Source of the DNA: Polaribacter sp. NJDZ03
Lineage (GTDB): Bacteria; Bacteroidota; Bacteroidia; Flavobacteriales; Flavobacteriaceae
Reading direction: 5' to 3'
Assembly: GCF_019263805.1 (NCBI RefSeq)
Contig: NZ_CP079195.1
Span: 3,769,001-3,833,000 of the forward strand
DNA: 64,000 nucleotides
In this document: positions 58 to 51,649 of the stretch, in pieces
How positions within the stretch are numbered: the first letter of the stretch is position 1
Layout: the number at the start of each line of letters is the position of its first letter
The notes under the pieces: model-generated
Database searches by the model: none
Told to the model about the DNA's origin: nothing
What the model saw: only the letters and a program-made list of their open reading frames with translations
Translations under genes and position numbers: made by a program

Positions 58-126
58 TTAAGGTAAATTAGTGTTAATGAGAGGTAAGATTCATAAAAAT
101 AAGGTGGTTTATTTTTTGGAAATTTG
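58..126 (+). promoter_or_regulatory. Putative regulon operator/promoter, site 1 (upstream of SusC-1)
   Basis: GGTAA starts at 62 and again at 83, i.e. 21 nt apart, and AAATTTG occupies 120-126. The same arrangement (two GRTAA copies 21 nt apart) recurs before six other transcription units in this window, four of the seven with a TTTG element ending 42-43 nt after the start of the second copy. I read it as an activator site placed just upstream of a Bacteroidetes-type promoter. A nearby imperfect inverted repeat (131-156, arms ATGAATTGAT and ATCAAATTCAT) may lie in the leader. Confidence 0.5.
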
Positions 127-187
127 AATAATGAATTGATTTTTTATCAAATTCATAATTTATAATAATTCAAAAAACCAATTAATT

Positions 188-3100
188 ATGAGAAAAAAAC
201 TATTTTTTGATAATAGTTCGTACGTATCCTTTATAAAACAATATAGGGTAATCGGACTATTATCAATTTGTTTAATCACATTTCCAGTGTTTGCAAATGC
301 AAGCTCATTAGAGGTAGATGATAACAATATTAATGAAGCTAGCTTTCAGCAAAATATTACTGGAACCGTTTCAGATGAGAGTGGACCAATCCCTGGGGTT
401 AGTGTTCAGGTAAAAGGAAGTACTACAGGTACTGTAACAGATTTTGATGGTAATTATTCTTTATCGGCAAAAGATGCAAATGCTACTTTAATATTTTCTT
501 ATATAGGTTATAAAACGCAAGAAGTTTTAGCCGGTGGTAAAGCAGTAGTAAACGTAACAATGTTACCAGATGTAGCAAGTTTAGATGAGGTTGTTATTGT
601 TGGTTATACTTCTAAGAAAAGAGGAGAATTAACAGGTTCTGTTAGTACATTAAAAGCAGAAGAAATAGAAAACACTTCTAATAGAGAAGTTGCTAAATCT
701 CTTTCTGGTAGGGTAACTGGTTTAATTGTTTCAGATAGAGGTGGTTATCCTGGTTCTAGTGGAGATGTGTCTTTATTAATTAGAGGGCAGTCTACACTAA
801 ACAATAATGCGCCTTTAATTTTAATTGATGGTGTGCAAACAGGTATTGATACATTTAATCAATTAGCACCACAAGATATAGCTAATTTAAGTGTCTTAAA
901 AGATGGGGCAGCAGCTATTTATGGTAATAGAGCAGCAAATGGTGTTATTATAGTAACTACAAGAAGAGGTAAATCTGGAAAAGCAAAAGTAAAGGTATCT
1001 ACTTCTTATAGTATTTCTTCATTTTCAGCATTTCCAAACTTAATGTCTTCAGAGCAATATGCAACTTATGAAAATGAAATTGCAGATAGAAAAGGAATTA
1101 CATTACCATTTACACAGTCAGATATAGATAAGTATGCTTCAGGTACCGATCCTATTAACTACCCAAGTACAGATTGGGCAGCGTTAACGTTTGCTAAAAA
1201 TGCACCAGAAACTAGAAATTCTATTTCTATTTCAGGAGGTAGTGAAAACGTAAAATACTTTGTAAGTGGAGACATGATGAGTAGAGAAGGTCTGTTTGCT
1301 TCTGGAGATTTAAATTTTAACCAAAGTCAATTGCGTTCTAACTTAGATGTTAAATTAACAGATGATATAAAGTTAAGTGCAGATATATCAGGTAGATTTT
1401 CAGAAAATAAACAACCAGGTGTAGATGCAAGTTTTATTTACAAGCATATTTATACAAATAGACCAACAGATGTTGGTGTGTATCCAAACGGGTTACCTGC
1501 TTGGGGTGGAGAAAATGGTGCAAACCCATTAGTAATGTCTAGTAATGAATCTGGGTTTACAAACCGAAAAGATACTGACTTAAGAAGTCGTTTTGCTATG
1601 GATTGGAAGTTAGATAAAATAACAAAAGGGTTAAGTTTTAATGGGTATGTTGGTTTAAGAAAAATGAATTACGACCAAAAATCTTTTTATACTCCTTGGA
1701 CAATTTATAGACTAGATCAAACCAGTGGAGATTATAATCCAGAAGTTGGTTTTTCTCAAAATGGTAAAGAAAATATTTTAAGAGATACTTTTTGGAAGTT
1801 TGATCAAACCTTATTAAATGCCACTTTAAGATATAGTACTACTATTAATGATGTACATTCTATAAATGGTTTTATTGGTTACGAGCAGCAAACATCACAA
1901 ACAAGTAGTTTTTATGCACAAAGCAGAAACCTACCTTCTGTAGACCTTCCGTATTTATTTGCAGGAGATCCAGAATCTCAACTAACGGATGGTTCTGCAA
2001 GTGAAGCAGCATCGTTAAGTTATTTAGGTTCTTTGTCTTATGATTATGATAAAAAATACTTTTTAGATTTAACATTACGTAGAGATGGTTCTAGTAGATT
2101 TAGTTCAGAGAATAGATTTGGTACTTTTTATAGTGTTGGTGGTTCTTGGGCTATTGGAAAAGAAAGTTTTTTAGAAAATGTTTCTTGGTTAAATTCTCTT
2201 AATTTAAGAAGTAGTTATGCTGTAATGGGGAATGATAGAATACCAGGATTTCAATTCTTATCTCAATATTCTTATGGTGGAGATTTTAATAATAACAACA
2301 CCAATACAAGACCAAATTATTATGCTTTTGGAGAGAATGGTATAACAAATAATGGTTACAGAACAGGTGTTGCGCCGAATCCAAATGTAACTTGGGAAAC
2401 TGCAATTATGAAAAACTTTGCTGTAACTTTTGCAATGTTTGATAATAGATTAACTGGAGAGGTAAATTATTTTTATCAGAATAGAAAAGATATCTTAGTA
2501 GACAATGGTGGTGAAGTTCCAGATTTTACAGGAGTACAATTACCAGATGAAAACTTAGGTAGAGTAGATAGTTATGGTGTTGAGGTTACTTTAGGTTGGG
2601 CAGATAAAATAGGTAATGTTGGATATAATTTAGGGTTTAATTTAACACAAGCCAAAAATAAGATTGTTTACTTACCGCAACCAGCAAATACACCAGATGC
2701 AATAAGATTAGAAGGAAGTCCTATTGGTTCTTATATTGTATACCCAACAGCGGGAATCTTTAAAGACCAAGCGCAAGTAGATGCTACTGAAGTAAAATTA
2801 TCAGGTACTGTAGAAGGAGAACCAATTTACTTAGATACAAATGGAGATTTAAAAATAGACGAGAATGATCGTGTTAGAAGACAAACTTCTAACGTGCCAC
2901 AAATACAATATGGTATTATAGGTGGTTTAAATTACAAGAACTTTAACTTTAGTTTCTTATTACAAGGGCAAGCCAAAGCAGAAGCATTAGTGTTTTTCGA
3001 TCAAGACGGGGCAAAGCCAGATTATGTGTTTAATCAAAGATGGACACCAGAAAACAGAAATGCAAGGTATCCAAGAGCTTTTGGTTTAAATGATACGTTT

Positions 3101-3388
3101 AGTGGTAATCAAAGTGATAATCCAGAAAATTTTCAAGGAGCAGATATTTGGATACATGATGCATCATTCTTAAGATTAAAAGAAATAGAATTAGGATATA
3201 CATTAACAAAAGAGAAAACAAAATTTGCAGATATTAAAATCTTTGCAAGAGGTTTTAACTTGTTAACTATGTTTTCAGAAATTCAAAAATTAGGATTAGA
3301 TCCAGAGGCAACAGGATACAATAACTTTAGAGGTGCAACATACCCTTCTTTAAAGATGTATACTTTCGGTTTAAATTTTACTTTTTAA
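188..3388 (+). CDS. SusC-like TonB-dependent outer-membrane transporter (SusC-1)
   Basis: This 1066-residue protein is a TonB-dependent outer-membrane porin that imports oligosaccharides together with its SusD lid. Visible parts are an N-terminal signal sequence with an unusually long n-region (hydrophobic core about residues 22-36), a carboxypeptidase-regulatory-like beta domain (about 56-128, with the GxVxDxxGPIPGVSVxVKG and TDFDGNYSL signatures), a TonB-box-like DEVVIVGY, a plug domain (LIRGQSTLNNNAPLILIDGV, then AAIYGNRAANGVIIVTT) and a long beta-barrel ending in an aromatic residue (LNFTF). Length is typical of SusC proteins. The SusD partner starts 18 nt after the stop. A GRTAA repeat site lies about 100 nt upstream. 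Substrate specificity cannot be read from sequence; the context suggests a sulfated galactan. Confidence 0.96.
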   Translation: MRKKLFFDNSSYVSFIKQYRVIGLLSICLITFPVFANASSLEVDDNNINEASFQQNITGTVSDESGPIPGVSVQVKGSTTGTVTDFDGNYSLSAKDANATLIFSYIGYKTQEVLAGGKAVVNVTMLPDVASLDEVVIVGYTSKKRGELTGSVSTLKAEEIENTSNREVAKSLSGRVTGLIVSDRGGYPGSSGDVSLLIRGQSTLNNNAPLILIDGVQTGIDTFNQLAPQDIANLSVLKDGAAAIYGNRAANGVIIVTTRRGKSGKAKVKVSTSYSISSFSAFPNLMSSEQYATYENEIADRKGITLPFTQSDIDKYASGTDPINYPSTDWAALTFAKNAPETRNSISISGGSENVKYFVSGDMMSREGLFASGDLNFNQSQLRSNLDVKLTDDIKLSADISGRFSENKQPGVDASFIYKHIYTNRPTDVGVYPNGLPAWGGENGANPLVMSSNESGFTNRKDTDLRSRFAMDWKLDKITKGLSFNGYVGLRKMNYDQKSFYTPWTIYRLDQTSGDYNPEVGFSQNGKENILRDTFWKFDQTLLNATLRYSTTINDVHSINGFIGYEQQTSQTSSFYAQSRNLPSVDLPYLFAGDPESQLTDGSASEAASLSYLGSLSYDYDKKYFLDLTLRRDGSSRFSSENRFGTFYSVGGSWAIGKESFLENVSWLNSLNLRSSYAVMGNDRIPGFQFLSQYSYGGDFNNNNTNTRPNYYAFGENGITNNGYRTGVAPNPNVTWETAIMKNFAVTFAMFDNRLTGEVNYFYQNRKDILVDNGGEVPDFTGVQLPDENLGRVDSYGVEVTLGWADKIGNVGYNLGFNLTQAKNKIVYLPQPANTPDAIRLEGSPIGSYIVYPTAGIFKDQAQVDATEVKLSGTVEGEPIYLDTNGDLKIDENDRVRRQTSNVPQIQYGIIGGLNYKNFNFSFLLQGQAKAEALVFFDQDGAKPDYVFNQRWTPENRNARYPRAFGLNDTFSGNQSDNPENFQGADIWIHDASFLRLKEIELGYTLTKEKTKFADIKIFARGFNLLTMFSEIQKLGLDPEATGYNNFRGATYPSLKMYTFGLNFTF

Positions 3389-3405
3389 CATAAAAAATAG
3401 ATACA

Positions 3406-5127
3406 ATGAAAAAAATAAAATTAATATATTTATTTGCAGCGATCGGCTTTTTCTCTATGATGAGTTGTGAAGATGTTTTAGATACAGACTCTTTAGATTC
3501 TTACCCTAGTGATTTAATCTTTAGTGATCCAGTGCAGTTAGAAAGAGTAGTGTATTCTGCCTACAACAGTACAGAGAGTTGGGGGTTAAACAAAAGTATT
3601 TGGTGGGCAAGAAGATATAATATCGAAGCAGGTTCTTTTGAAGCTAAGTTTAATTTTAAGAATTTAAATAGACTTGGTTTAAGTGGTAATGGATGGAATT
3701 CTCTTAACGTAGGAGATTTTAGAAATAAATGGAGAGACTATTTTCTTTTTGTAAATGAAATCAATCAATTTTTAAATAATGTTGATGATAGTGAAGCGAT
3801 GGCTGTAAATCCAGAAAAGGTTAATGGTCTAAAAGCAGAAATGAAATTTTTACGAGCTAATATCTACTCTAAAATGATTAAGATGTTTGGTGGTATACCA
3901 ATTTTTGAAACTGCATTTGGATTAGGGTCTGAATTTAATATTCCTAGAAATTCTTATGAAGAATGTGTTACTTTTATAGTAAAAGAATTAGATGAAGCTG
4001 CAGCTATTTTACCAGAAACAAGACCTGCATCAGAATTTGGTAGAGCTACAAAATTAGCAGCATTAGCAGTAAAGGCTCGTACTTTATTGTTTGCAGCTAG
4101 TAAATTACACGATCCTGCTACGTTACCAAGTGGTCCGTTATATGACTATGCAAAAGCAACAAAATGGAAAGATGCAGCAGATGCAGCAAAAGTAATAATT
4201 GATTTAGTAGGGGGAAGAGATTTAATTGCGACTCCAAATGCAGCAGCGTATCAAAAGTTGTTTTTATCAGCAAACCAAGATATTCTTTTTGCAAGACCTT
4301 ATGGAGAAACTTTATATGATTTTGGTTTAGATGTAAATTCGTTACCAGACCAAACACAGTCTCCAAGCGGTTATGGTGGTTGGGGTTTATCATCTCCAAC
4401 ACATAATTTTGCGTTAGAGTTTAATATGGCAGACGGTTCTACTACAAGTGGTGCTTCTTATGTTGCTGCAACTCCAAATGCAAATAGAGAGATGAGGTAT
4501 TATGCAGATTTAAATTATCAAGGTGCTATGTTTAGAGGTAGAGCTGTAGATTATGCTTTAGCAACAGATGCTTCACAGGCAGATGGGTTAGACTCTGCTA
4601 ACGGCTCTAGTGTTGGAAGTTCTGGAAATGATAATCATTCTTCTAAAACAGGATATAATATTAGAAAGTTTCAAGATGAAGAATTAACGACAACTACAGA
4701 TATTTCTGCTGGACGTCCTTATGTTTTATATCGTTTAGCAGAAGTATATTTAAATTATGCAGAAGCAAAAGCAGAAATGGGAGAAGATGCAGAAGCTAAA
4801 ATTTATTTAAACAAAGTTTCTACAAGAGCTTTACAACCAGCAATAACTTTAGGAGGAGATGCTCTTAAAGAAGCAATTAAAAGAGAAAGACGTATAGAAT
4901 TAGCTTTTGAAGGTCATAACTTTTGGGATGAAAGAAGATGGATGAATCCTGCTAATTTAGGATTTGATATTAAAGGATTGAAGTGGGAAAAAGGAGCTGC
5001 AGGAGTGGTAACGCACACAGAGTATAATGTTGTTACTAGACCTTGGTTTGATAAGCAATATTATTTACCAATTCCTAATCAAGAAATTCAAAAAGCATCA
5101 GCATTAATTCAGAATGATGGTTATTAA
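3406..5127 (+). CDS. SusD/RagB-family glycan-binding lipoprotein (SusD-1)
   Basis: This is the surface lipoprotein that caps the SusC-1 pore and binds glycan. It has a lipoprotein signal ending in SMMSC (lipidated Cys21) followed by acidic residues (EDVLDTD), typical of surface-exposed Bacteroidetes lipoproteins. The RagB/SusD helical region with TPR-like segments includes LKAEMKFLRANIYSKMIKMFGGIPIF. The C-terminal SusD signature, ERRIELAFEGHNFWDERRW, lies near residues 498-516. The 573-residue length is normal. It follows SusC-1 by 18 nt and is closed by a strong terminator at 5170, so SusC-1/SusD-1 form a two-gene unit. Confidence 0.95.
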   Translation: MKKIKLIYLFAAIGFFSMMSCEDVLDTDSLDSYPSDLIFSDPVQLERVVYSAYNSTESWGLNKSIWWARRYNIEAGSFEAKFNFKNLNRLGLSGNGWNSLNVGDFRNKWRDYFLFVNEINQFLNNVDDSEAMAVNPEKVNGLKAEMKFLRANIYSKMIKMFGGIPIFETAFGLGSEFNIPRNSYEECVTFIVKELDEAAAILPETRPASEFGRATKLAALAVKARTLLFAASKLHDPATLPSGPLYDYAKATKWKDAADAAKVIIDLVGGRDLIATPNAAAYQKLFLSANQDILFARPYGETLYDFGLDVNSLPDQTQSPSGYGGWGLSSPTHNFALEFNMADGSTTSGASYVAATPNANREMRYYADLNYQGAMFRGRAVDYALATDASQADGLDSANGSSVGSSGNDNHSSKTGYNIRKFQDEELTTTTDISAGRPYVLYRLAEVYLNYAEAKAEMGEDAEAKIYLNKVSTRALQPAITLGGDALKEAIKRERRIELAFEGHNFWDERRWMNPANLGFDIKGLKWEKGAAGVVTHTEYNVVTRPWFDKQYYLPIPNQEIQKASALIQNDGY

Positions 5128-5169
5128 AATATTTTTTATTTCATAGTAGAATTATTTGAATTTGATTTG

Positions 5170-5204
5170 AGAAAATGCTGAGGATATATTCCTCAGCATT
5201 TTCT
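5170..5204 (+). terminator. Intrinsic terminator after SusC-1/SusD-1
   Basis: Perfect 14-bp stem (GAAAATGCTGAGGA pairing with TCCTCAGCATTTTC) with a 5-nt loop, extended by one A-T pair, 43 nt after the SusD stop. It is nearly symmetrical. Confidence 0.85.
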
Positions 5205-5263
5205 ATTAAACAAAATTAGAGGTTAGTATCATTAAAAAAAACTTAACACAAAATATAAAATCG

Positions 5264-7731: not shown

Positions 7732-7845
7732 AATACGCATGTTAAAATAACTTACAAGGTTTCTAAAACGGTGCAGGAAAATCAAATAATTCAAATTCAC
7801 TTTACGTGATATTCTGTTTATTAAGACAGATAATACATACAGTCA

Positions 7846-7888: not shown

Positions 7889-7952
7889 CTTTGTTTTAAA
7901 AGATGATTAATTTGTATCAAAAAAAATAATTTCTATCATAAAATACTAAAAC

Positions 7953-9751: not shown

Positions 9752-9818
9752 AAGGTAAAATAGGGTTAAGAGTTGGTAAATTTAATTAACAGATTAAGTC
9801 TGAATTAGGTTTACTTTG
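9752..9818 (+). promoter_or_regulatory. Putative regulon operator/promoter, site 2
   Basis: GGTAA starts at 9754 (in AAGGTAAAAT) and at 9775 (in TTGGTAAATT), exactly 21 nt apart, with TACTTTG at 9812-9818. It precedes the transporter/GH16/sulfatase/GH127 operon that starts at 9890. Confidence 0.55.
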
Positions 9819-13003: not shown

Positions 13004-14422
13004 ATGATGAAAAAAAGTATTCTATTTATTTGTATGGCAATAGCAATGGCTAGTTGTGCTCAAAAAAAGCCAAACATTATTTTCTTGTTTTCTGATGATG
13101 CAGGGTATGCCGATTTTGGTTTTCAAGGAAGTGACGTAATGATAACACCTAATTTAGATAAGCTGTCTAAAGAAGGCGTAAAGTTTACGCAGGGGTATGT
13201 AACAGATGCTACTTGTGGTCCTTCTAGAGCAGGATTAATTACAGGGAAATATCAACAAAAATTTGGGTATGGAGAAATAAATGTTCCTGGTTATATGAGT
13301 GAAAACTCAAAGTTTTTAGGAGATGATATGGGCTTGCCTTTAGACCAAAAAACAATCGCAGATTATTTAAAAGAATTAGGATATACAAGTGCTGCCTACG
13401 GAAAATGGCATTTAGGTAATGCAGATCGTTTTCATCCTTTAAAAAGAGGATTTGATGAATTTTACGGTTTTAGAGGTGGTGCAAGAAGTTTTTTTCCAAT
13501 CAAAAATTTTAAAGGCATTCACCATGACAATAAAATGGAAAGAAATTTTGGTCATTTTGAAGAACCAAAAGGGTATGCTACAGATGTTTTTGCAGACGAA
13601 GCAATCTCTTTTATCGAAAGAAATAAGGACAAACCATTTTTTATCTATTTAGCCTTTAACGCAGTTCATACGCCTATGGAAGCTACTCCAGAAGATATGG
13701 CAAAGTTTCCTAATTTAAAAGGAAAGCGTCAACAAGTGGCAGCAATGACATTGGCATTAGACAGAGCTTCTGGTAAGGTTTTAGATAAGTTAAAAGAACT
13801 AGGTTTAGATGATAATACAATTATTGTTTTTTCTAATGATAATGGAGGTCCAACAGATAAAAATGCCTCTTTAAACTTGCCTTTAAGTGGAACAAAATCG
13901 AACCATTTAGAAGGTGGATTAAGAGTTCCTTTTTTAGTAAAATGGCCTAAAAAATTAAAATCAAACCAGGTGTATAATTACCCTGTTAGTACGTTTGATT
14001 TATTACCAACATTTTATGCTGCTGGAGGTGGTGATGTTGCAGATTTAGATGCAGTAGATGGTGTAGATTTAATGCCTTTTATTAGTGGAGCTGACAGTGC
14101 AAGACCACACGAAGATTTATTTTGGAAAAAAGAAACGCGTGCTGTTTATAGACATAACGATTGGAAATTAATCCGTTTTGCAGATAGACCAGCAGAATTG
14201 TATGATGTTTCTAAAGATTTAACTGAGCAAAAAGATTTGGCTTCAGCAGAACCAGAACGTTTAAAAAGCATGTTTAAAAAGTTATTTGAATGGGAATTGA
14301 CCTTAGAGCGTCCGATGTGGATGTTAAAACAAACTTTTGAAAAATATGACATTGATAGAATGGATCGTTATAGAACTCCGGAGTTGGTAAAAGAGGAAAT
14401 GAAGAAATACAATAATAACTAA
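13004..14422 (+). CDS. S1-family sulfatase (arylsulfatase type), lipoprotein
   Basis: A 472-residue sulfatase with a lipoprotein signal (MASC, Cys18; ATG at 13004 or 13007). [19 protein letters not shown] supplies metal-binding Asp31/Asp32. The formylglycine site is C71-G-P-S-R, followed by [26 protein letters not shown] and FSNDNGGP. Length and order match arylsulfatase-A-like S1 enzymes. It sits between the two GH16 paralogues, 19-35 nt from each neighbour, so desulfation and chain cleavage are co-expressed. Confidence 0.93.
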
Positions 14423-18071: not shown

Positions 18072-18100
18072 ATGGTAAAATAGGAATATGATAAGGTACA
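18072..18100 (+). promoter_or_regulatory. Putative regulon operator, site 3
   Basis: GGTAA starts at 18074 and GGTAC at 18095, exactly 21 nt apart, within ATGGTAAAATAGG and AAGGTACAATAAAGG. The promoter element expected about 37-43 nt further on is weak here (TTCTTG near 18132-18137). It precedes the FG-GAP protein/phosphoesterase/sulfatase unit. Confidence 0.5.
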
Positions 18101-23440: not shown

Positions 23441-25048
23441 TTATATAGAAGTAATGAAACTGGTTAGATTTTGATGTCTTTCCAGTTTCATTTTTTTACG
23501 CAATCTGTGTCTTGCAACATGTACACTTCCTAAAGAAATTCCTAAAAGGTGTGCCATTTCTTTTCCCGAAAAGTTAAGTTTTATCAATGCACAAAGCTTT
23601 CTGTCTGCTCTACTTAAATCGGGTACTTTTTCTTGTAAGCGTTCATAAAAGCTCTTGTTAAGTTGATTAAATCTTCTATTAAAAGAATCCCATAAACTGG
23701 TAGAACTTCTTTCTATTGTTTTTAAAATTATTTTTGATTTGTTTCCCGGATTTGCTTCTTTAATAAAATCGCTTAACTGTTTTATTACTTGTTCTTTTTC
23801 TATTAATTGAAGCGTGTTTGTGGTGAGTTCCTTGTTCTTAACGTCTAATAATTCTTTAGAGTTTTGCTGCTTTTTTTCAAACTTTAAATTTTTAATTCTT
23901 TGTCTAAAAATTAAGGTTAAAATAATTACTAAAAATAGGATGATAAACATCGTAATTCTAAAATTAAGAAGGGCTTCTTTTTCTTTAGCCAATTCTAAGT
24001 TTTTAATATTTAATTGCTCTCTTTTTTTAATAAGTTCTTCTTTGTAATAGTTTTTAATGGTTAAAAAACCTTTGTTTTTTTCGTTTCTAGGGTTTAGTAA
24101 AGCGTTGCTGATATCATTAGATTTTTTTTCATATTCATAGGCTAGTGCAAATAAATTTAGTTCTTTTAAAACTTCCGCATAGCGTGAGTATAAAAACGAT
24201 TTATAGAAGGTTGTTTCTCCTAAATCGCCCTTTATTTTAGCGAATTTTTCAAAATAAAATTTTGCTTCATTAAGGTCGTTCTTTTTATGATAGATGATTG
24301 CAATTCTGCCATAAATAATTAGCAAAAACTTCTTGTCCTTGTTTTTTAATCCAGAATTTGGTCCACTATTTTCTAATTGCTGTGCTGCATTTTTTAGTAG
24401 TTTTAATGCTTCATTTGGAGCACTATTCCACTCGCTAATACTTGCTTTTTTTTCGTCAAGAAAAATAGAATAGATAGGAGGTAGTTTCGTTTTTTTTGAA
24501 AGAACAATACAACTATCAATATAAGATTGTAGGTTTTCTTTGTCCGCAATACGTTGATAGTGTAAAACTAAATTATAATAAGATTTGTAAATTTCTGATA
24601 CGTCAATTTTGTGATGCTTATATAGTTTTCTATATAGTTCATGAGCTTTAATAAAATAGCTTTCAGATTCTTCGTTTTGTTTATATAGATAGGTTAAAAC
24701 ACCTAATTCTTCATTGGCTTTTGCTATTAAAAGTGGGCTTTTATATTCTTCGGATATAAAAAGGGCTTCACCTGCAAAACTAAATGCTTCTAAGTAATCT
24801 AGGTTAAATCTATTAAATCTACTTTGAGTAATAAGGGTGTTAATTAATAAAGTGCTGTCTTTTTTTATTACTGCTTGTTCTTTTGTTTTAGTTAAAAAAA
24901 TAGAAATAGAATCAAAAGGCATATTTAAAGGAATTATATGCTCTTTAAAATGAGTTTTTAATTGCTGTCCTTGTAAACACTGTAAAACACTAATGTTAAG
25001 TATAATTATAAGGTAAAAACTTTTTTGTAAGTTGTTTAATGTTTTCAT
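23441..25048 (-). CDS. Membrane TPR sensor with LuxR/GerE-type HTH (local regulator)
   Basis: A 535-residue one-protein regulator. It has a signal-like N-terminus (about 1-28), a helical TPR-type region outside the membrane (about 60-330), one transmembrane segment (364-384), a coiled-coil linker (about 386-430) and a cytoplasmic C-terminal LuxR-type helix-turn-helix (about 478-522; DLSRADRKLCALIKLNFSGK, LLGISLGSVHVARHRLRKKM). This build is common in Bacteroidetes one-component regulators. It is the only intact DNA-binding regulator in the left 52 kb, transcribed against the locus from between the sulfatase and GH127 genes. It is the obvious candidate for the GRTAA direct repeats, though nothing in the sequence proves this; its own promoter lacks that repeat. 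Confidence 0.85.
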   Translation of the reverse strand: MKTLNNLQKSFYLIIILNISVLQCLQGQQLKTHFKEHIIPLNMPFDSISIFLTKTKEQAVIKKDSTLLINTLITQSRFNRFNLDYLEAFSFAGEALFISEEYKSPLLIAKANEELGVLTYLYKQNEESESYFIKAHELYRKLYKHHKIDVSEIYKSYYNLVLHYQRIADKENLQSYIDSCIVLSKKTKLPPIYSIFLDEKKASISEWNSAPNEALKLLKNAAQQLENSGPNSGLKNKDKKFLLIIYGRIAIIYHKKNDLNEAKFYFEKFAKIKGDLGETTFYKSFLYSRYAEVLKELNLFALAYEYEKKSNDISNALLNPRNEKNKGFLTIKNYYKEELIKKREQLNIKNLELAKEKEALLNFRITMFIILFLVIILTLIFRQRIKNLKFEKKQQNSKELLDVKNKELTTNTLQLIEKEQVIKQLSDFIKEANPGNKSKIILKTIERSSTSLWDSFNRRFNQLNKSFYERLQEKVPDLSRADRKLCALIKLNFSGKEMAHLLGISLGSVHVARHRLRKKMKLERHQNLTSFITSI

Positions 25049-30347: not shown

Positions 30348-32270
30348 ATGAAAAGAAGAGATTTTTTCAAAAAAGGAGCAACAGCTGCAATAGCGGTGGG
30401 AGCAATACCAATGATAGCAACTTCATGCGCAAGTGCAAATGACATGGTGTATGATAGAGAAAATGATAAATGGTATCATTTAGGAACGGGGAAAACAGGG
30501 ACAAATTCAAGAAAAAAAACAGATGAATATGATGTCGCTGTAATTGGTGGTGGAGCCGCAGGAATTTGTGCAGCAGTTGCTGCGGCAAGAAATGGTTCTA
30601 AAACTGTTTTAATTCAGGATAGACCCGTTTTGGGTGGAAATGCTTCAAGTGAAATGTGCGTGCATTTAAACGGAGTAAACAATATAAAAGGAAAAGCAGA
30701 ACGAGAAACAGGGATCATTGAAGAAATTTTGTTACACAATCGTTTTGAAAATGAGCAAGAAGCTTTTCCTGTTTTTGATCATGTTTTGTACGATTTTGTG
30801 GTGAGAGAACCTAACATCACATTAATGCTAAATACCCAAGCCATTGAAGCCGTTATGGATGGAGATAAAATAAAATCTGCAATGTGTTGGCAAGCAACTA
30901 CAGAAATAATGTTTACTATAAATGCTCCTATTTTTATAGATTGTTCTGGTGATGGATTGTTAGCTGCAACTTCTGGCGCGGAATATAGAACAGGTAGAGA
31001 AGGAAAGGCAGAGTTTAATGAAAAATATGCACCAGACGAGCCAGATGGTTGGCAAATGGGGGCAACTTTATTAATGTCTTCTAAAGATATGGGGAAACCG
31101 ATGAAATATTCTCCTCCTTCTTATGCTATTAAATACACGCATGAAGGTGCAAGTGAAAGGAGGAAATTTGCAGGTTTTCATGAAGGAATTTGGTGGATAG
31201 AAGTTGGGAGTGAAGATGATATTATTGCCGAAGCAGAAGTAAATAGACATAAATTAATGGGCTATTTACATGGGGTTTGGGATTATATTAAAAATTCAGG
31301 AAAATTTCCGGAAGCGGAAAACTTAGCCTTAGATTGGGTAGGTTCTTTACCCGGAAGAAGAGAATCTCGTCGTTTTGTAGGAGATCATATTTTGTCTGAA
31401 AAAGACATGACATAGCACAAACATTTTGAAGATGCGGTTGCTTTTGGAGGTTGGTCTTTAGATGAGCACAATCCTGGTGGAATTGAAAATATTTCTGAGC
31501 CACCAAGTTATTTTCATTATCACTTTAAAGAAGTATATCAATTTCCATTTAGAAGTTTGTATTCTAAAAATGTGTCTAATTTATTGTTTGCTGGTAGAAA
31601 TGTAAGTCAGACGCATATTGCACTTTCTTCTAGTAGAATTATGGCAACGTGTGCTTTGCAAGGTCAAGCGGTGGGGACAGCAGCTACAATTTGTAATAAA
31701 TACAATGTTTTGCCAAGAGAAGTTGGTCAAAAGCATATTAATGAATTACAAGAGCAATTAATGAGAGATGATGTTTTTATTCCGAAGAGAAATGCAAACG
31801 ACCCAAAAGATTTGGCTAAAAAAGCAAGTACCATTTTTGGTTCATCTACTTCTTCTGGTGATGCTAAAAATTTAACAAACGGAATTTCGAGAGATATTTA
31901 CGGAGAAATTAATCACTGGCAATCAGATGGACTTTCAGCTGAAATTCAGGCTGAATGGGAATCTCCAATTACATTATCATCCATAGAAATTAAGTGTGAT
32001 ACCAATGTAAAACGTAATATTATGATGCGTAAAGACAGTAAAAACGACGATTTGTATGGAAACTCCGTTCCTAAAGAAATGTTGAAAGCTTTAAGTTTTG
32101 AAGCAAGAGTTAACGGGGGATGGGTAGCATTAGGTGCTATTACGGACAATCGAACACGTTTGATTAAAATGAAGTTTAGCAGCGTAAAAACGACCGCTAT
32201 TAGAGTAAAAATGACAGAAACTTATGGTGCAGAAAACGTGAAGTTGTTCGAATTGCGTTGTTATGCATAA
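30348..32270 (+). pseudogene. Tat-exported FAD-dependent oxidoreductase interrupted by an in-frame amber codon
   Basis: One continuous reading frame of 640 residues is broken only by TAG at 31413-31415 (codon 356). Before the stop are a twin-arginine signal (KRRDFFKKGA) with a lipobox (ATSC, Cys27) and a Rossmann FAD-binding motif (YDVAVIGGGAAGICAAVAAA), then LGGNASSEMCVHLNGV. After the stop the same frame continues HKHFEDAVAFGGWSLDEHNPGG and LLFAGRNVSQTHIALSSSRI, the second nucleotide-binding half, and ends in a ~120-residue discoidin-like beta domain. The family (FAD_oxidored) accompanies carrageenan and other algal polysaccharide loci; its reaction is not established. Without readthrough only the first half is made. 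One base change from GAG, CAG or AAG explains the stop; a sequencing error is possible. Confidence 0.85.
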
Positions 32271-33489: not shown

Positions 33490-33555
33490 ATGGTAATTTT
33501 GATATATTAAAAGATATAATTCAGCAATTTCATCTCAGAATAGTACTGTAATTTG
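33490..33555 (+). promoter_or_regulatory. Putative regulon operator/promoter, site 7
   Basis: GGTAA starts at 33492 and a degenerate copy, GATAT, at 33513 (21 nt apart), with TAATTTG at 33549-33555. A short inverted repeat (TACTG/CAGTA) overlaps the latter. It is about 80 nt before the S1_7-type sulfatase copy B. Confidence 0.4.
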
Positions 33556-38762: not shown

Positions 38763-38829
38763 AGGATAAAATACAGTAATGATAAGATAATTGCCACATA
38801 TACATAATTCCGATTATACTGTTACTTTG
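38763..38829 (+). promoter_or_regulatory. Putative regulon operator/promoter, site 4 (upstream of SusC-2)
   Basis: GATAA starts at 38765 (in AAGGATAAAAT) and at 38786 (in TAAGATAATTG), 21 nt apart; TACTTTG lies at 38823-38829, the same 37-nt offset as in site 2. Opposed TTACC-type boxes (38716-38720 and 38733-38737) also occur upstream. A ~110-nt leader separates the promoter element from the SusC-2 start. Confidence 0.55.
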
Positions 38830-43830: not shown

Positions 43831-43840
43831 AAGATATATC

Positions 43841-45622: not shown

Positions 45623-45637
45623 TTTAAATTAGAAATA

Positions 45638-46042
45638 ATGATGAAAAATATAATAAAATATATTGCCGTTTTTGCAATCGTTTTGGCATTCACTTCTTGT
45701 GATGAAGAAAGCAATTTTGAAGAGTCTACGACAGCTTTAACACCAGTATTTACCATTACAGACATTACAGGTAATAATGCCGCTTTTAAAATTAATATAT
45801 ACAAAGAAGTTAGTGTAATTGTAGAATATTCTACAGAAGTAAATTTAGAATCTTATACATCTTCTGGTTTTGCCGATTCTTCTACTGATACTAATTTTGA
45901 AGTAGAAGTAAATAAGTTAGAGGGTGAAGCAACTGTAAATTATGTTTTATCTGCAGATAAAACAACAGGAGCAGGAACGTTAACTGTAGACGGAACGACT
46001 ATTTTTAATGTAAAAGTTTCTGAAGAAGAAGTTTATAATTAA
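45638..46042 (+). CDS. Small lipoprotein, last gene of the SusC-2 unit
   Basis: A 134-residue lipoprotein (FTSC, Cys21; start ATG at 45638 or 45641) followed by acidic residues (DEESNFEES) and about 100 residues of Thr/Ser/Val-rich beta sequence. I do not recognise a family. It lies 15 nt after the glycan-binding protein and is closed by a strong terminator, so it is co-expressed with SusC-2/D-2. A minor binding subunit is possible. Confidence 0.75.
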   Translation: MMKNIIKYIAVFAIVLAFTSCDEESNFEESTTALTPVFTITDITGNNAAFKINIYKEVSVIVEYSTEVNLESYTSSGFADSSTDTNFEVEVNKLEGEATVNYVLSADKTTGAGTLTVDGTTIFNVKVSEEEVYN

Positions 46043-46064
46043 TATTATTTTTTAACTTAATAAG

Positions 46065-46094
46065 AAAGGCTACAGATATCTGTAGCCTTTTTTT
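46065..46094 (+). terminator. Intrinsic terminator of the SusC-2 unit
   Basis: AAAGGCTACAGAT and ATCTGTAGCCTTT form a perfect, loopless 13-bp palindrome followed by TTTT. Confidence 0.85.
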
Positions 46095-46182
46095 GTTTTA
46101 ACTAAATTATGTTTTTTATTTATCTAAATGATATAAAAGTTATCTTACAAGTATTAAAAATAATTTTTTAAACTTTCTTTAT

Positions 46183-46270
46183 TTACCTTTTAAGTAGGAA
46201 TTAAAAGGTAATATATGATTTGTTTTAGATAAAAATGAAGCCTACCAAAAACAGCTTATTATTTACTTTT
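46183..46270 (+). promoter_or_regulatory. Putative operator/promoter, site 5 (with an extra inverted repeat)
   Basis: GGTAA starts at 46207 and GATAA at 46228 (21 nt apart), with TACTTTT at 46264-46270. The GGTAA copy is also the right arm of a perfect 11-bp inverted repeat: TTACCTTTTAA at 46183-46193 and TTAAAAGGTAA at 46201-46211, spacer 7 nt. It precedes the acid-sugar catabolic operon. Confidence 0.5.
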
Positions 46271-46335
46271 AACATCTAGCATAATTACAGATTTGTAATT
46301 TATAATTGCTAAAGAGTCAACTAAATAACTAAACA

Positions 46336-47508
46336 ATGACAATAGAAAAAATAGAAGCGTTTGTTCTTAAAGATACTTTATCTAAAAGTTTTTTCTTTTC
46401 ACAATGGGAATATGCAGAACGTTGTATCTGTGTTGTTAAAGTAACAGCCTCTAACGGTCAACACGGTTGGGGAGAGGCTTATGGTCCTGCTACAATGGTA
46501 GAAGCAGGTATAAAATTATTAGAATCAACTGTGCTAGGAGAAAATCCTTTAGAAAATGAAGTAATTTGGAACAAAATGTACCGGAAGACGTTAGATTTTT
46601 CTAGAAGAGGTGTTTATATGGCGTCAGTTAGTGCTATAGATATTGCTATCTGGGATTTAAAAGGTAAAATTTTAGGATTACCAGTTTCAACCTTATTAGG
46701 TGGTGCTCATAGAAGGAAGATACAACCTTATGCAACAGGTTTATACTTTACAAATCACAATAATTTTTCTGAAGGTTTTGTAGAAGAAGCTAAATTATAC
46801 GTTTCTCAAGGTTTTAAAGCCATGAAAATGAAAGTAGGTTTGGGTATTAAAGAAGATGTTGCTAACGTAAAACTTATTCGAGAAACTATTGGACCGGATA
46901 TAGATTTAATGGTAGATTCTAATCATGCGTATACTTTTAGAGAAGCTGTAGAATTATCAAAAAAAATAGAGAAATACAATATCAAATGGTTTGAAGAACC
47001 TATATCACCTGAGTTTTATGAACAATATAGGGAGTTAAGAGAAAAAACTACTATTCCTATTGCTGGTGGTGAATGTGAGTATTTACGTTTTGGATTTAAT
47101 GAATTAATCAAAAATAAATCTGTAGATATTTTACAACCAGATGTTTGTGCAAGTGGAGGTTTAACAGAAGCAAAAAGAATTGCTGCTTTGGCAAGTACGA
47201 ATGGTATCGATTTAATACCACATACTTGGGGAACTTCTATTGGTTTACATGTTGGTTTGCATTTTATAGCGAACTTAGAGGCGATTCCTGGGAGAATGTA
47301 TCAAGCAGATTACTTAATAGAGTTTGATCAAACAGAAAACGGATTAAGAGACAACTTAACATTTCCTAAATTAGAAATGAAAGATGGTATGTTAGAAGTA
47401 CCAAATAGACCCGGTTTAGGGATTGATGTAGATGAAGATGTTTTACGTAAGTATTGTATCAGTAGTACTACCAATGAAATAGAAGTTGAAAAATTATTAA
47501 ATAAATAA
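46336..47508 (+). CDS. Enolase-superfamily enzyme, mandelate racemase/cycloisomerase type
   Basis: A cytoplasmic 390-residue enzyme with the mandelate racemase layout: K164-M-K166 (KxK general base), metal ligands Asp194 (VDSNHAY), Glu220 (FEEP) and Glu246 (GGECEY), and His296 (IPHTWG). Unlike the dehydratase at 6.6 kb it has KxK instead of DxH at the base position. Followed at 8 nt by an aldehyde dehydrogenase and then an aldolase, it fits either a 3,6-anhydrogalactonate cycloisomerase (anhydro-sugar to acid to 2-keto-3-deoxygalactonate) or a sugar-acid dehydratase of a fuconate-type pathway. The substrate is inferred from context only. Confidence 0.85.
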   Translation: MTIEKIEAFVLKDTLSKSFFFSQWEYAERCICVVKVTASNGQHGWGEAYGPATMVEAGIKLLESTVLGENPLENEVIWNKMYRKTLDFSRRGVYMASVSAIDIAIWDLKGKILGLPVSTLLGGAHRRKIQPYATGLYFTNHNNFSEGFVEEAKLYVSQGFKAMKMKVGLGIKEDVANVKLIRETIGPDIDLMVDSNHAYTFREAVELSKKIEKYNIKWFEEPISPEFYEQYRELREKTTIPIAGGECEYLRFGFNELIKNKSVDILQPDVCASGGLTEAKRIAALASTNGIDLIPHTWGTSIGLHVGLHFIANLEAIPGRMYQADYLIEFDQTENGLRDNLTFPKLEMKDGMLEVPNRPGLGIDVDEDVLRKYCISSTTNEIEVEKLLNK

Positions 47509-47516
47509 ACAAGCAT

Positions 47517-48971
47517 ATGAAGACTCAAAACTTCGGATATAAAAAATTATACATTGATGGTCAGTTAGTAGATGCTGTTAGTGGAGAAAGAGAAGATGTT
47601 ATTTGCCCAGCAACAGGAGAAGTAATTGCTCAGGTTGCAAAAGCAGGAAAAGCAGATGCAGAAAAAGCATTGATCTCATCACAAAAAGGTTTTAAATATT
47701 GGTCTAAACTTTCTTTAATAGAAAGAACCGTTTGGATGTTAAAATTGCGTGATGCAATTTTAGAAAAATCAGATGAGTTAAGAAATGCAATGGTGCATGA
47801 AATGGGGAAAACCTATGTAGGTTCTGAAGAAGATATATTAAGACTTACAGAGTCATTAGAATGGTACCCAAATGCCATGAAAAATTTAAGAGAAGAGCAA
47901 ATTCCTGATTATGATGGTACGCATACTCATAAAATGATTTCTAAACCAGCAGGAGTTGCTATTGCTTATTTAGCATGGAATTTTCCGTTATTAAATGTTG
48001 GTTATAAAATAGGACCGGCATTAGCTTCTGGATGTTCTTTAATTATTAAACCATCTAGTTTATCACCTTTATCCGCATATATGGTAGGTGAAATTTTAGA
48101 AAGCATCAATTTTCCAGCTGGTGTGGTTACCATTTTAGCAGGTTCTAGTAGCGAAGTGGCAACACCAATGACTACCAGTAAAATTCCTGCAGTAATTACC
48201 ATGATTGGTTCTACGCAAACAGGACAAAGAATCATTGCTGATAGTACAACTTCTATCAAAAAATTAGGAATGGAATTAGGAGGAAATGCTCCTTTTATTG
48301 TTTTTGAAGATGCAGATTTAGAGTTGGCTTTAGATTTGGCAATCGGATTAAAATTTGGAAATACAGGTCAGATTTGTGTGGCTGCAAACAGAATTTTCGT
48401 TCATAAAAATATCTATGACAAATTCTTAAAGGAATATGTAAAAAGAGCATCCGCATTAAAAATAGGTTTTGGTACTAAAGAAAATCCAGACGTATTTATG
48501 GGGCCTTTGGCTTCTAGAGGATCTAGAGATAGAATGTTTACGTTGATAGAAGATGCAGTAAGTAAAGGAGCAAAATTAGAATATGGAGGAGGAATTCCTG
48601 AAGGCTTACCAGAAGGAGGAAACTGGATGCAACCAACCATTATTTCTGGTACTACAACGGAAATGAAATTGTTTAGAGAAGAAACTTTTGGACCTATTGC
48701 AGGTGTAATGTCTTTTGATACGGATGATGAAGTTTTAGAATTAGCAAACGATACCGAATTTGGTTTAGCTTCTTATATTTTTACAAACAATAACAAGAGA
48801 ATAGAAAGATTTACAGAAGATTTAGAGTTTGGAGAAATTCAAATCAATGGTGTAAAATATGCTATTTATTTACCACACGGTGGATTTAAAAATAGTGGAA
48901 TTGGACATGATTGTTCACACCTTGCTTTAGATGATTATTTAGTTAAGAAACGTATTACATCAGCACTATAA
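47517..48971 (+). CDS. NAD(P)-dependent aldehyde dehydrogenase
   Basis: A 484-residue cytoplasmic aldehyde dehydrogenase. Conserved residues visible are Asn155 in AWNFP, Lys178 in IIKPS, Glu253 in ELGGNAPFIV and the nucleophile Cys287 in GNTGQICVAANR. In this operon it could oxidise 3,6-anhydrogalactose to the anhydrogalactonate used by the preceding enzyme, or oxidise lactaldehyde/glyceraldehyde released by the following aldolase. The first is the role of the ALDH in described carrageenan catabolic operons. It starts 8 nt after the enolase-type gene and ends 2 nt before the aldolase start. Confidence 0.92.
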   Translation: MKTQNFGYKKLYIDGQLVDAVSGEREDVICPATGEVIAQVAKAGKADAEKALISSQKGFKYWSKLSLIERTVWMLKLRDAILEKSDELRNAMVHEMGKTYVGSEEDILRLTESLEWYPNAMKNLREEQIPDYDGTHTHKMISKPAGVAIAYLAWNFPLLNVGYKIGPALASGCSLIIKPSSLSPLSAYMVGEILESINFPAGVVTILAGSSSEVATPMTTSKIPAVITMIGSTQTGQRIIADSTTSIKKLGMELGGNAPFIVFEDADLELALDLAIGLKFGNTGQICVAANRIFVHKNIYDKFLKEYVKRASALKIGFGTKENPDVFMGPLASRGSRDRMFTLIEDAVSKGAKLEYGGGIPEGLPEGGNWMQPTIISGTTTEMKLFREETFGPIAGVMSFDTDDEVLELANDTEFGLASYIFTNNNKRIERFTEDLEFGEIQINGVKYAIYLPHGGFKNSGIGHDCSHLALDDYLVKKRITSAL

Positions 48972-48973
48972 TT

Positions 48974-49738
48974 ATGGCGAAAAATTTATTACAAGCTAGT
49001 TTAAAGGAGGGTAAAACACTTTACGGTCCTTTTTGTAAAGTACAAGATCCTGCAATGGTAGAAATTGCTGCTTTAGGAGGTTTCGATTTTGTTATTATAG
49101 ATATGGAGCATGGTCCTTATAGCATAGAATCTACTCAGAATATGATTAGAGCTGCAGAAGCTAGAGGAATTACACCTGTTGTAAGAGTTACAGAAAATTC
49201 TGAAACTTTAATTCTAAGAACTTTAGATATTGGAGTTAAATGCATTCAGGTTCCGCAAATATGTACAAAAGCAGATGCGGAAAGATTGGTGAAGTCTACC
49301 AAGTTTTATCCGAAAGGAGAAAGAGGTATGTGCAGATATGTAAGAGCAGCAGAGTATACAAATATTAGTGCAGCAGATCATTTTGGAAAAGCAAATAATG
49401 ATATTACTACCATTATTCACATAGAAGGAATGGAGGGTATTAATAACTTAGAAGAAATTGTACAAGTAGATGGTATTGATGTGATCTTTTTAGGTCCTTA
49501 TGATTTATCTCAATCTTGTGGTGTTCCTGGTTTAGTTAATGACCCTAAAGTAGTAGATGCTATGAAAGGCGCTGTAGAAACTGCTAAAAAATACGGTAAG
49601 TTTGTAGGTACTTTTACAGAAACACCAGAAAAAGCAAAAATGTGGAAAGATATTGGCGTACAATATATTTCTTATGCGGTAGATGTTGGTTTAGTAATGA
49701 ATACTTTTAAAGAAATTACTGCACAACTTAAAGCTTAA
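48974..49738 (+). CDS. HpcH/HpaI-family 2-keto-3-deoxy acid aldolase
   Basis: A 254-residue class II (metal-dependent) aldolase of the HpcH/HpaI family. FVIIDMEHGPYS carries the catalytic His; HIEGMEG and FLGPYDLS(Q) supply metal-binding and substrate-loop residues; VGTFTETPEKAKMW and YAVDVGL end the barrel. It would split an unphosphorylated 2-keto-3-deoxy sugar acid into pyruvate plus an aldehyde. No sugar-acid kinase accompanies it, which differs from kinase-plus-KDPGal-aldolase routes in other carrageenan degraders. Last gene of its operon (terminator at 49761). Confidence 0.9.
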   Translation: MAKNLLQASLKEGKTLYGPFCKVQDPAMVEIAALGGFDFVIIDMEHGPYSIESTQNMIRAAEARGITPVVRVTENSETLILRTLDIGVKCIQVPQICTKADAERLVKSTKFYPKGERGMCRYVRAAEYTNISAADHFGKANNDITTIIHIEGMEGINNLEEIVQVDGIDVIFLGPYDLSQSCGVPGLVNDPKVVDAMKGAVETAKKYGKFVGTFTETPEKAKMWKDIGVQYISYAVDVGLVMNTFKEITAQLKA

Positions 49739-49760
49739 GCAGAAAATACTATAAATGATG

Positions 49761-49796
49761 AAACCCTATAACTGAGAAGTTGTAGGGTTTTCTTTT
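49761..49796 (+). terminator. Intrinsic terminator of the catabolic operon
   Basis: AAACCCTATAACT and AGTTGTAGGGTTT form a 13-bp stem with one mismatch and a GAGA loop, followed by TCTTTT. Confidence 0.8.
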
Positions 49797-50086
49797 GCTT
49801 TAAAATTAATGAATCAATTTAAACCTGTCTCTTCGACTTTTTTAGGAGAAGTTGTATAAAGAGGTTAAATACAATATACGTAATATGATGTGATTTCTTT
49901 TAGCTACGCTAGATACTTTCAATCAAGATATATTTTGATTTCAGTAGTATTCGAAATGACCAAATTGTGAGGAACTTTATTGGTAATAAAGCTGGTCACT
50001 TCTGCTTTTTTGGAGATGTCACATAAAGAAGATAACACACAACATGAGTATTACTATATGTTTTCTTCTGTTAATCTGTAAACAAA
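49797..50086. repeat. Gene-free stretch with two degenerate copies of an intergenic repeat
   Basis: No gene is visible. Two related units occur: one near 49826-49900 (CTGTCTCTTCGACTTTTTT, then AGGAGAAGTTGTATAAAGAG) and one near 49998-50060 (GGTCACTTCTGCTTTTTTGG, then AGATGTCACATAAAGAAG). They look like decayed copies of a dispersed flavobacterial repeat, with a short TCGAAATGAC fragment between them. Confidence 0.4.
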
Positions 50087-50117
50087 AAAAGCTAACAATT
50101 TTAAATTGCTAGCTTTT
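50087..50117 (-). terminator. Terminator for the T9SS-secreted protein gene
   Basis: AAAAGCTAACAATTT and AAATTGCTAGCTTTT form a stem with one mismatch, 32 nt beyond the stop of the minus-strand gene; runs of A/T on both sides make it usable from either direction. Confidence 0.75.
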
Positions 50118-50148
50118 ATAAAGTACGTAATTTGTGGAAAATAATTAT

Positions 50149-51540
50149 TTAGTTTTTAACTAATTTCTTTGTAGAAATTCCTTTGTCTGAAGATATTTTA
50201 ACTAAATAAACAGACTTGCTTAAAGAAGAAACATCAATAGATTTTGTATTTGTTGTAGAAAGTACTTTTTTACCTAATAAGTTAAAGATTTCAACTTTAT
50301 TAAGCGTTTCTTTAGAATTAATAAATAATTTATTTTCTACAGGGTTTGGATACATGTTTACATTTTCTAATTGTTGAGAACTCACACCTGCTGTTGGAGC
50401 ATCTTCAATAACTGCAGTCATTTGGTCAAAGTAAACAACGTCTCCAGCTACACCGTTTAAAGCTACATTTTCTTCGTTATTTATATAACCTAGCCACATT
50501 TCTATATTACGTATTTCTGAAGCTGGATCTGTATGGTCTTGAGGAAGAGGAATTGTAAAAGTTAATTCTTCCCAAGTATCTGCTGTTCCACTGGTGCTAA
50601 AAGAAGCTGTTGGCCAACCTGTAGCTACTTTAGAGTCTCCTCCTGCAGCATTTGTAGTTTTTAATCTTACTGAAATACTTATAGGTGCTGTTCTAGTAGA
50701 TCTTACCCACATTGTTACCTTGGCTTGTTTTCCGTCAGTAATAATTCCAGCAGCATAAGGCTGTGAAAAATCATTAAAGTACCAAAACTGAGCATCTTGA
50801 TCTTTAGTAAAAGTACTTTTAAAACTTTTGGTTCCATCTTTAGCAAAATCTGTAGATAATTCTCTACCTAATTGAGTTGTATTTCCCCTAAAAGTATAGC
50901 TTCCTACAGCATCGTCAAAACTAGGGTTTTTAATAAATTCAGAATATGTAGAAGGAGGTAATTCTGTTAAAAATTCAATTTCATCAATATATAATTTAGC
51001 TCCTGATGGGTCTGTTAAAGCACTACCAGCTCTAAATAATATATCTAATGTAGTAACCTCTCCTGTAATAGCAGACACATCTAAATATATTGTTTGAAAT
51101 CCACCAGCAAATTTAGCTAACAATACGCCATTATTATTTTGAGTATCAATGCTAGAAGGTTCATCTGTTGTTCCTGCGGGTCTAAACTTTCCTTGTACTT
51201 GTACATTTATAGCCTCTGTTTCGTTATAAACTTTAACTTTAATGTAGTTGTAAACGTCTGCATCGAATACAATAAAAGCATCATCTCCACCTTGTCCTCT
51301 TCTAATATTGGCATTGTTATTTGTTGTACCAGCTTCAGTTCTGTCTAAAGTTAGTGCCCCATCAGAAGAAGGTGTAGTAGTTCCATCATCCCAAGATACT
51401 GTTCCGGGACCATAGCCTTTGACCCAAGATTGAGCATCGGCTGTAAATTGATAATGTGTAGGTCCTTGTTGTGCAGCTATTTTTATGGTAGTAAAAAGGA
51501 CTGCAGCCATAAATAAAATTTTAAAGTAATTTTTTTTCAT
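50149..51540 (-). CDS. T9SS-secreted protein with carbohydrate-binding-like domains
   Basis: A 463-residue secreted protein. A signal peptide (about 1-24, IKIAAQ|Q) is followed by two beta-sandwich domains that resemble carbohydrate-binding modules (about 28-195, ending AKLYIDEIEFL; and about 200-385, starting SEFIKNPSFDD and ending DVVYFDQMTAVIED). The last ~70 residues (ENVNMYPNPVENKLFIN to VYLVKISSDKGISTKKLVKN) are a type A type IX secretion sorting domain. No catalytic domain is evident, so it is probably a secreted glycan-binding protein. Its upstream region has the GRTAA repeat on the minus strand, which ties it to the locus despite its opposite orientation. Confidence 0.85.
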   Translation of the reverse strand: MKKNYFKILFMAAVLFTTIKIAAQQGPTHYQFTADAQSWVKGYGPGTVSWDDGTTTPSSDGALTLDRTEAGTTNNNANIRRGQGGDDAFIVFDADVYNYIKVKVYNETEAINVQVQGKFRPAGTTDEPSSIDTQNNNGVLLAKFAGGFQTIYLDVSAITGEVTTLDILFRAGSALTDPSGAKLYIDEIEFLTELPPSTYSEFIKNPSFDDAVGSYTFRGNTTQLGRELSTDFAKDGTKSFKSTFTKDQDAQFWYFNDFSQPYAAGIITDGKQAKVTMWVRSTRTAPISISVRLKTTNAAGGDSKVATGWPTASFSTSGTADTWEELTFTIPLPQDHTDPASEIRNIEMWLGYINNEENVALNGVAGDVVYFDQMTAVIEDAPTAGVSSQQLENVNMYPNPVENKLFINSKETLNKVEIFNLLGKKVLSTTNTKSIDVSSLSKSVYLVKISSDKGISTKKLVKN

Positions 51541-51623
51541 AATAAATGGTTTATAGTGTTTAAAATATTAGTTTTTTATATCTATAAAATTAATTTATAT
51601 GTTAGCATATTTCATGCTAAATA

Positions 51624-51649
51624 TTACCTTTTACTTGCGCTGGTTTATC
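51624..51649 (-). promoter_or_regulatory. Putative regulon operator, site 6
   Basis: Read on the minus strand, GATAA (complement 51649-51645) is followed by GGTAA (51628-51624), starts 21 nt apart, about 84 nt before the start of the T9SS-secreted protein. The expected promoter element is weak (AATTTTA). Confidence 0.45.

Follow-up and report, generated by a model that had tools for sequence, protein, structure and literature searches.

Direct repeats read by AraC-type regulators have been described in several settings, and the statements on published systems made here refer to excerpts of the cited papers. In Bacteroides thetaiotaomicron, hybrid two-component systems (HTCS) with an AraC-type helix-turn-helix (HTH) have predicted operators that are direct repeats averaging 21 bp, located upstream of the genes of polysaccharide utilization loci (PULs; Ravcheev et al. 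2013, PMC3878776). In Pseudomonas fluorescens, the operator of the AraC/XylS activator MtlR at PmtlE has two directly repeated blocks, one spanning -72 to -58 and the other -50 to -36, shortly before the -35 element (PMC4514859). CgrA (ZGAL_3159) of Zobellia galactanivorans is an AraC-family positive regulator of carrageenan catabolism, and belongs with dauA-D, dagA, cgsB, cgtA and cgtB to the core set of Ficko-Blean et al. (PMC5698469). Here we analyse a stretch of 64,000 nt from Polaribacter sp. NJDZ03 (NZ_CP079195.1, 3,769,001-3,833,000; source genome labelled G000), called the window throughout, in which a GRTAA direct repeat with a 21-nt period precedes genes of a carrageenan-type PUL; judged from sequence, this repeat very probably serves as operator for a dimeric activator of the AraC family, P0002, whose gene lies beside the window. 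While a 21-bp direct repeat is already known for AraC-type proteins, the operator described here is unusually well defined and widely conserved.

The 21-nt repeat in the window and in AraC-linked loci

Seven GRTAA pairs with starts 21 nt apart lie in the window (Table 1), at the positions given in a preliminary description made from the letters of the window, which had also correctly listed the imperfect second copies GGTAC (18095) and GATAT (33513). Its statement that the pairs lie 80-150 nt before start codons fits all but the pair at 38765, which is 173 nt ahead of its ATG. Exact GRTAA-N16-GRTAA occurs five times in the window against 0.91 expected, a count reached by none of 100 shuffles; across the 4,597 nt that make up its 20 upstream regions, five pairs have spacing 21, and three in all fall at any of the 30 remaining spacings between 10 and 40 nt.

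The proposal that the pairs form one regulon, read by a dimeric regulator across two helical turns at a fixed distance from the promoter, is much strengthened by other genomes. Scanning a collection of named genomes with P0002 yielded 58 loci, and the 53 used below (L122-L174) have at least 55% identity to it (55-88%); from the genome names, we take them to represent Flavobacteriia, Cytophagia, Bacteroidia and Saprospiria. At spacing 21, the 411 regions upstream of their genes (80,524 nt) contain 135 sense pairs, compared with 0-6 at each of the 26 other spacings between 10 and 36. On the antisense strand there are 25 pairs at spacing 21 and 0-4 at any other spacing, which is what divergent promoters would give; anywhere on both strands, the loci contain 189 pairs. 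The control set of 59 shorter loci (29 around other SusC genes, 30 around AraC-type domains) has no upstream pair in 96 upstream regions, which amount to 19,918 nt or a quarter of the upstream DNA of the 53 loci, and seven pairs anywhere. Beyond the 53 loci, L176 (50% identity) and L177 (60%) have five and four upstream pairs, and L175, L178 and L179 (27-32%) have no upstream pair.

When the bare pair is used as a genome-wide detector, background swamps the true sites (191 matches in the 4.08-Mb genome, against 167 in the reversed control), and this detector was dropped. A composite pattern with loose spacing was also dropped genus-wide, since it matched 160 of 166 genomes with the reversed control behaving alike, as was a first composite pattern, whose unsuited fixed spacer gave 0 matches. 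We therefore used a stricter pattern of the pair plus TTTG, and a matrix built from 125 sites of other genomes that scores positions with G at either repeat start; locus L122, the same record as one of the relatives considered below (G138), was omitted from its training. The training sites come from other genomes, and scanning the window with this matrix is not circular. It recovers all seven sites (scores 39.3, 32.5, 31.7, 29.7, 21.2, 15.8 and 15.7), and no other position in the window scores 9 or more; at this threshold there is no site upstream of SusC-3 or SusC-4, as the preliminary description had said of the pair. In 269 kb of control DNA, the matrix finds 0 matches at 16 or above, 1 at 14 or above, 2 at 10 or above and 5 at 8 or above, so that the two weakest sites (15.8 and 15.7) are near noise by score alone. 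To the left of the window there are three more sites, which precede a GH16 gene (31.6), a sulfatase gene (14.8) and a gene for a GH16 protein sorted by the type IX secretion system (T9SS; 11.2, near noise). In the 53 loci, the matrix at 14 or above marks 170 sites in 52 loci, a count that is partly circular because 125 sites of these loci served to train the matrix; 161 of the 170 have a gene on the same strand within 450 nt, and none lies 30 nt or more inside an open reading frame (ORF) of at least 100 codons. The only locus without a site is L132, an 8-kb contig of a metagenome-assembled genome.

Conservation at orthologous promoters is also seen within the genus. A SusC-1 probe run against a sample of 59 genomes returned, besides itself, only paralogs of at most 40% identity because the sample held no true relatives; regulator probes across the genus located the orthologous loci, those of G099, G127, G138 and G154 being found with the gene for a TPR protein of the window (Table 1). 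Alignments show the element preserved amid diverged flanks: before the sugar transporter gene, about 40 nt are near-identical in G000, G099, G127 and G138, and the remainder of the region aligns poorly. Matrix sites scoring 11 or more number 10, 9, 10 and 4 in the orthologous regions of G099, G127, G138 and G154, respectively. In G154, where the operon does not begin with the transporter gene any more, the site precedes sulfatase S1b instead.

Promoter register and half-site architecture

We stacked 127 sites on the pair alone, so that TTTG played no part in the alignment. In 75 of them the last base of a TTTG lies exactly 43 nt past the second-copy start, with 4 at 42 nt, 6 at 44 nt and 12 at the next-best offset; the remaining columns far from the pair are mostly at background. 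This TTTG is the -7 box TAnnTTTG of sigma-A, whose position in Flavobacterium psychrophilum is -12 to -5 (PMC9723704). With the G of the box placed at -5, the first half-site would begin at about -69 and the second at about -48, the latter ending near -33. The operator would thereby take the class II position of AraC proteins, its downstream half abutting -33. No conserved TTTG is present at -33 among the aligned sites; the promoters described here thus share the -7 box with the published flavobacterial promoter, but differ from it in having a putative activator half-site in place of the -33 TTTG. For the window, the preliminary description gave box ends 42-43 nt past the second-copy start in four cases; the box of the pair at 33492 ends one base before the 43-nt rule, and the TACTTTT assigned in that description to the fifth site belongs to the sixth (46207).

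The half-site itself has the consensus RGRTAAWWT, and 11 nt past its G comes a weaker block, R(T/C)AA. The stacked columns show it as positions 0-7 and, more weakly, 11-14, repeated at 20-28 and weakly at 31-36. Two blocks per half-site are expected when an AraC-type domain inserts its two recognition helices into adjacent major grooves (PMC4514859).

P0002 as the candidate activator of a carrageenan regulon

A search of G000 for HTH_18 domains gave 24 matches, among them the AraC-family gene P0002 (G000:C1:3762657-3763532), which lies some 5.5 kb beyond the left end of the window. This better candidate was outside what the preliminary description could see, and its counterparts adjoin the locus in all four relatives. 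P0002 has 291 aa and an AraC DNA-binding domain (HTH_18, E 1.5e-19); HTH_18 and HTH_AraC are its only domain matches, and in the PDB it matches the DNA-binding region of an HTCS (12aw) and AraC itself (2k9s). It is thus similar to the HTCS of PMC3878776 in its type of HTH, and unlike them in being a one-component AraC protein without kinase or receiver match, rather than periplasmic sensor, kinase, receiver and HTH in one chain. The arrangement of two direct sites about 21 bp apart upstream of PUL genes is also common to both; here the half-site is GRTAAWWT, and the promoter register is fixed to one base, a point on which no statement was found in the excerpts of PMC3878776. The first HTH is near-invariant across the 53 orthologs (MTTNSFCRFFKK.TNKSFT). 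At the locus edge in G127, there are three tandem AraC genes, one of them partial with stops (G127:C1:4277717-4280586).

The gene content suggests what this regulator may control. The product of 46336-47508 has DauB (PDB 5olc; PMC5698469) as its nearest structural match, and that of 13004-14422 resembles an exo-acting kappa-carrageenan sulfatase (Table 1); two GH127 genes, GH16 genes, sulfatase genes and SusCD pairs complete a setting like that of the CgrA-type carrageenan PUL. In the 53 loci, the genes that follow the sites closely resemble the core set of Ficko-Blean et al. Sorting the genes after the 161 matrix sites by their best match in the present locus gives SusC-1 (25), the DauB-like protein (19), the 13004-14422 sulfatase (17), GH127 (14), GH16 (13, plus 5 like the T9SS-sorted GH16) and SusC-2 (12), with 32 having no match. 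Other enzymes fit less clearly: two GH16 proteins that were compared have as nearest match 9ijc, named only as a GH16 domain protein, followed by porphyranases ahead of kappa-carrageenases, and the GH127 protein compared matches named arabinofuranosidases; in the Zobellia paper, the GH16 proteins of other Bacteroidetes PULs are distant from its kappa-carrageenase (PMC5698469). Based on the carrageenan-PUL enzymes, we read P0002 as probably CgrA-like: both belong to the AraC family, CgrA is a member of the core set, and homologs of several core genes carry the operator here. We found no published operator for a CgrA-type regulator among open-licence PMC papers; the excerpt of PMC5698469 gives none for CgrA, and the term "operator" occurs 0 times in it.

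The distribution in the genus links the repeat to the AraC gene. Among 166 genomes surveyed with an ortholog cut-off of E <= 1e-60, an AraC ortholog is present in 12 and a TPR ortholog in 6, with both in 5. A strict pair-plus-TTTG site occurs in all 12 AraC-positive genomes, versus 23 of the 154 others. The strict sites in these 23 AraC-negative genomes number 24, of which 8 are coding and 16 intergenic, and 12 of the latter lie within 1.4 kb of an AraC paralog with 29-35% identity to P0002. At six of the 12, the site separates the paralog from a divergent DHDPS-family gene; at two others, it stands ahead of the AraC gene itself. The 12 paralogs have MT.NAFCRYFK in common. In the paralog loci L257, L258 and L260-L268, seven neighbour genes were scanned with Pfam; six are DHDPS-family genes and one is the AraC gene itself (L266), and in L267 the site likewise precedes the AraC gene.

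With direct half-sites two helical turns apart, two blocks in each, a predicted abutment on -33 and a regulator encoded together with its regulon, the locus has the features of a class II dimeric AraC/XylS system. We suggest that one P0002 monomer would occupy each 21-bp half, its two HTH units contacting GRTAAWWT and, one turn of the helix beyond it, the weaker R(T/C)AA block. As the second half ends at about -33, the activator would substitute for the missing -33 element, and may hold the sigma-A polymerase on the TAnnTTTG box. The effector would probably be 3,6-anhydro-D-galactose or one of its derivatives, in line with a suggestion made for the carrageenan regulon of Zobellia (PMC5698469), and such an activator could turn on the genes for carrageenan digestion in many marine bacteria. 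The MtlR operator at PmtlE is similar in its regulator family and in its pair of direct-repeat blocks, but has another sequence, a promoter with a -35 element, and a footprint too short for a dimer (PMC4514859).

Several observations weigh against the bare pattern or against P0002 as the reader of these sites. The bare pair is hardly enriched across the genome, and with two mismatches permitted the window itself gives 400 matches versus 315. Among single sites, operator 3 has no good -7 box, the site before the left-flank sulfatase gene (14.8) sits in the final 50 nt of the preceding ORF, and two near-identical operator-like sites at G000:C1:3046016 and 3046841 (L255, 8016 and 8841) point away from the nearest start codons. 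The 53 loci were picked by the AraC gene, so another regulator constantly linked to it may be the reader. The paralogs of 29-35% identity beside similar sites blur specificity among AraC regulators, and the helix FCR(F/Y)FK is also found in 3 of 14 aligned control AraC proteins, near which no upstream pair was seen. One genome, G012 (67% complete), has a strict site and a partial TPR gene with stops, and no P0002 ortholog at the cut-off.

These paralogs, together with the 24 HTH_18 matches in G000 and the fact that 21-bp direct repeats are common to AraC-type regulators, would fit an HTCS or another AraC paralog encoded elsewhere as the main reader, with P0002 linked or auxiliary. We regard this as very unlikely, because 52 of the 53 P0002-ortholog loci have sites and the 59 control loci, 30 of them around other AraC-type domains, have no upstream pair.

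The preliminary description had named the TPR/HTH regulator at 23441-25048. Its gene, which encodes a membrane-type protein, lies inside the locus and is the sole regulator seen in the window, its orthologs in G099, G127 and G138 accompany sites, and G012 combines a partial copy with a strict site. Against this, seven of the 12 AraC-positive genomes have strict sites and no TPR ortholog (six of them, G061, G163, G173, G180, G181 and G141, are loci L138, L144, L150, L148, L141 and L123, and only G080 is additional). In G154, the TPR gene (C1 579043-580622, L080) is a pseudogene with several stops, but the AraC gene and four scored sites persist. Across the 53 AraC loci, TPR homologs (E <= 1e-30) occur in 10, one of them with more than 30% identity, in loci of up to about 20 kb that would miss TPR genes farther away; in the motifs predicted for SusR-like regulators, 67 or 77 bp separate the sites (PMC3878776). 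That the TPR protein reads the element is therefore very improbable. A chance or compositional origin in AT-rich promoters, to which the lack of clear genome-wide enrichment might point, can be dismissed, since spacing 21 alone stands out among 27 spacings in the 53 loci and the -7 box keeps a fixed register to the pair; the frequency outside promoters weakens the bare five-letter pair and leaves the full element unaffected.

With P0002 as the preferred activator, what is less ordinary about the operator is the register of the -7 box, kept to one base across many loci, and a code common to distant paralogs. CgrA is known genetically, and a motif whose promoter register is exact to one base permits direct prediction of carrageenan regulons in marine Bacteroidota, reaching genes unlike PUL genes, such as the one for the T9SS-sorted protein. 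For a phylum whose promoters are unusual, the motif further suggests a way in which an activator could take over the -33 contact. We see an even chance that RGRTAAWWT in a 21-bp direct repeat, at a fixed 43 nt before a TAnnTTTG box without -33 element, is the code of a whole AraC subfamily of marine Bacteroidota that includes both the CgrA-like proteins and the paralogs beside DHDPS-family genes. If so, these promoters would form a distinct activator-dependent class in the phylum, whose members could be found genome-wide by sequence alone.

Feature coordinates and neighbouring observations

Table 1. Predicted operators, -7 boxes and genes of the Polaribacter window (window coordinates; scores are those of the matrix, followed by counterparts in relatives where given).
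Feature	Position	Strand	Remarks
Operator 1 (SusC-1)	62..87	+	GGTAA-N16-GGTAA; score 32.5; kept in G099, G127, G138
-7 box of SusC-1	119..126	+	GAAATTTG; TTTG ends 43 nt past second-copy start
Operator 2 (sugar transporter-GH16-sulfatase-GH16-GH127 operon)	9754..9779	+	score 39.3
-7 box of operon 2	9811..9818	+	TTACTTTG
Operator 3 (FG-GAP/ASPIC-UnbV gene)	18074..18099	+	second copy GGTAC; weak, score 15.7; G099 15.7, G127 12.1; in G138 a site of another sequence before the same gene, 28.6
Operator 4 (sulfatase S1e)	33492..33517	+	second copy GATAT; weak, score 15.8; G099 15.7, G138 11.2
-7 box of S1e	33548..33555	+	GTAATTTG; ends one base nearer than 43 nt
Operator 5 (SusC-2)	38765..38790	+	score 31.7; G099 31.7, G127 30.5, G138 29.2
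-7 box of SusC-2	38822..38829	+	TTACTTTG
Operator 6 (DauB-like cycloisomerase/aldehyde dehydrogenase/aldolase operon)	46207..46232	+	score 21.2; G099 21.2, G127 23.4, G138 19.3
-7 box of operon 6	46264..46271	+	TACTTTTA
Operator 7 (T9SS-sorted protein, 50149-51540)	51624..51649	-	score 29.7; G127 34.4
-7 box of operator 7	51585..51592	-	TAATTTTA
Exo-4S-kappa-carrageenan S1 sulfatase-like	13004..14422	+	PDB 6prm, E 7.2e-217
DauB-like cycloisomerase	46336..47508	+	nearest PDB 5olc, E 2.2e-146
TPR/HTH regulator	23441..25048	-	named in the preliminary description; judged not to read the sites

The SusC-1 promoter (window 20-87) has three GKTAA copies in 21-nt phase, at 41 (GTTAA), 62 and 83, and SusC-2 may likewise have a weaker third phased copy upstream. 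The two sites at 3046016 and 3046841 lie within a tandem array of duplicated genes for proteins of 184-194 aa, with another AraC gene nearby.

Within the window, a gene for a FAD-dependent oxidoreductase (30348-32270) is split by an in-frame stop (31413-31415). Conserved recoding was rejected as an explanation, since a stop is found at that place in this strain only; as the gene is intact in G099, G127, G138 and G154, the break looks recent and local. Finally, a XerD-like tyrosine recombinase gene (52284-53312) lies between the operator-bearing locus and the operator-less block of SusC-3 and SusC-4, and may mark the right border of an acquired segment.

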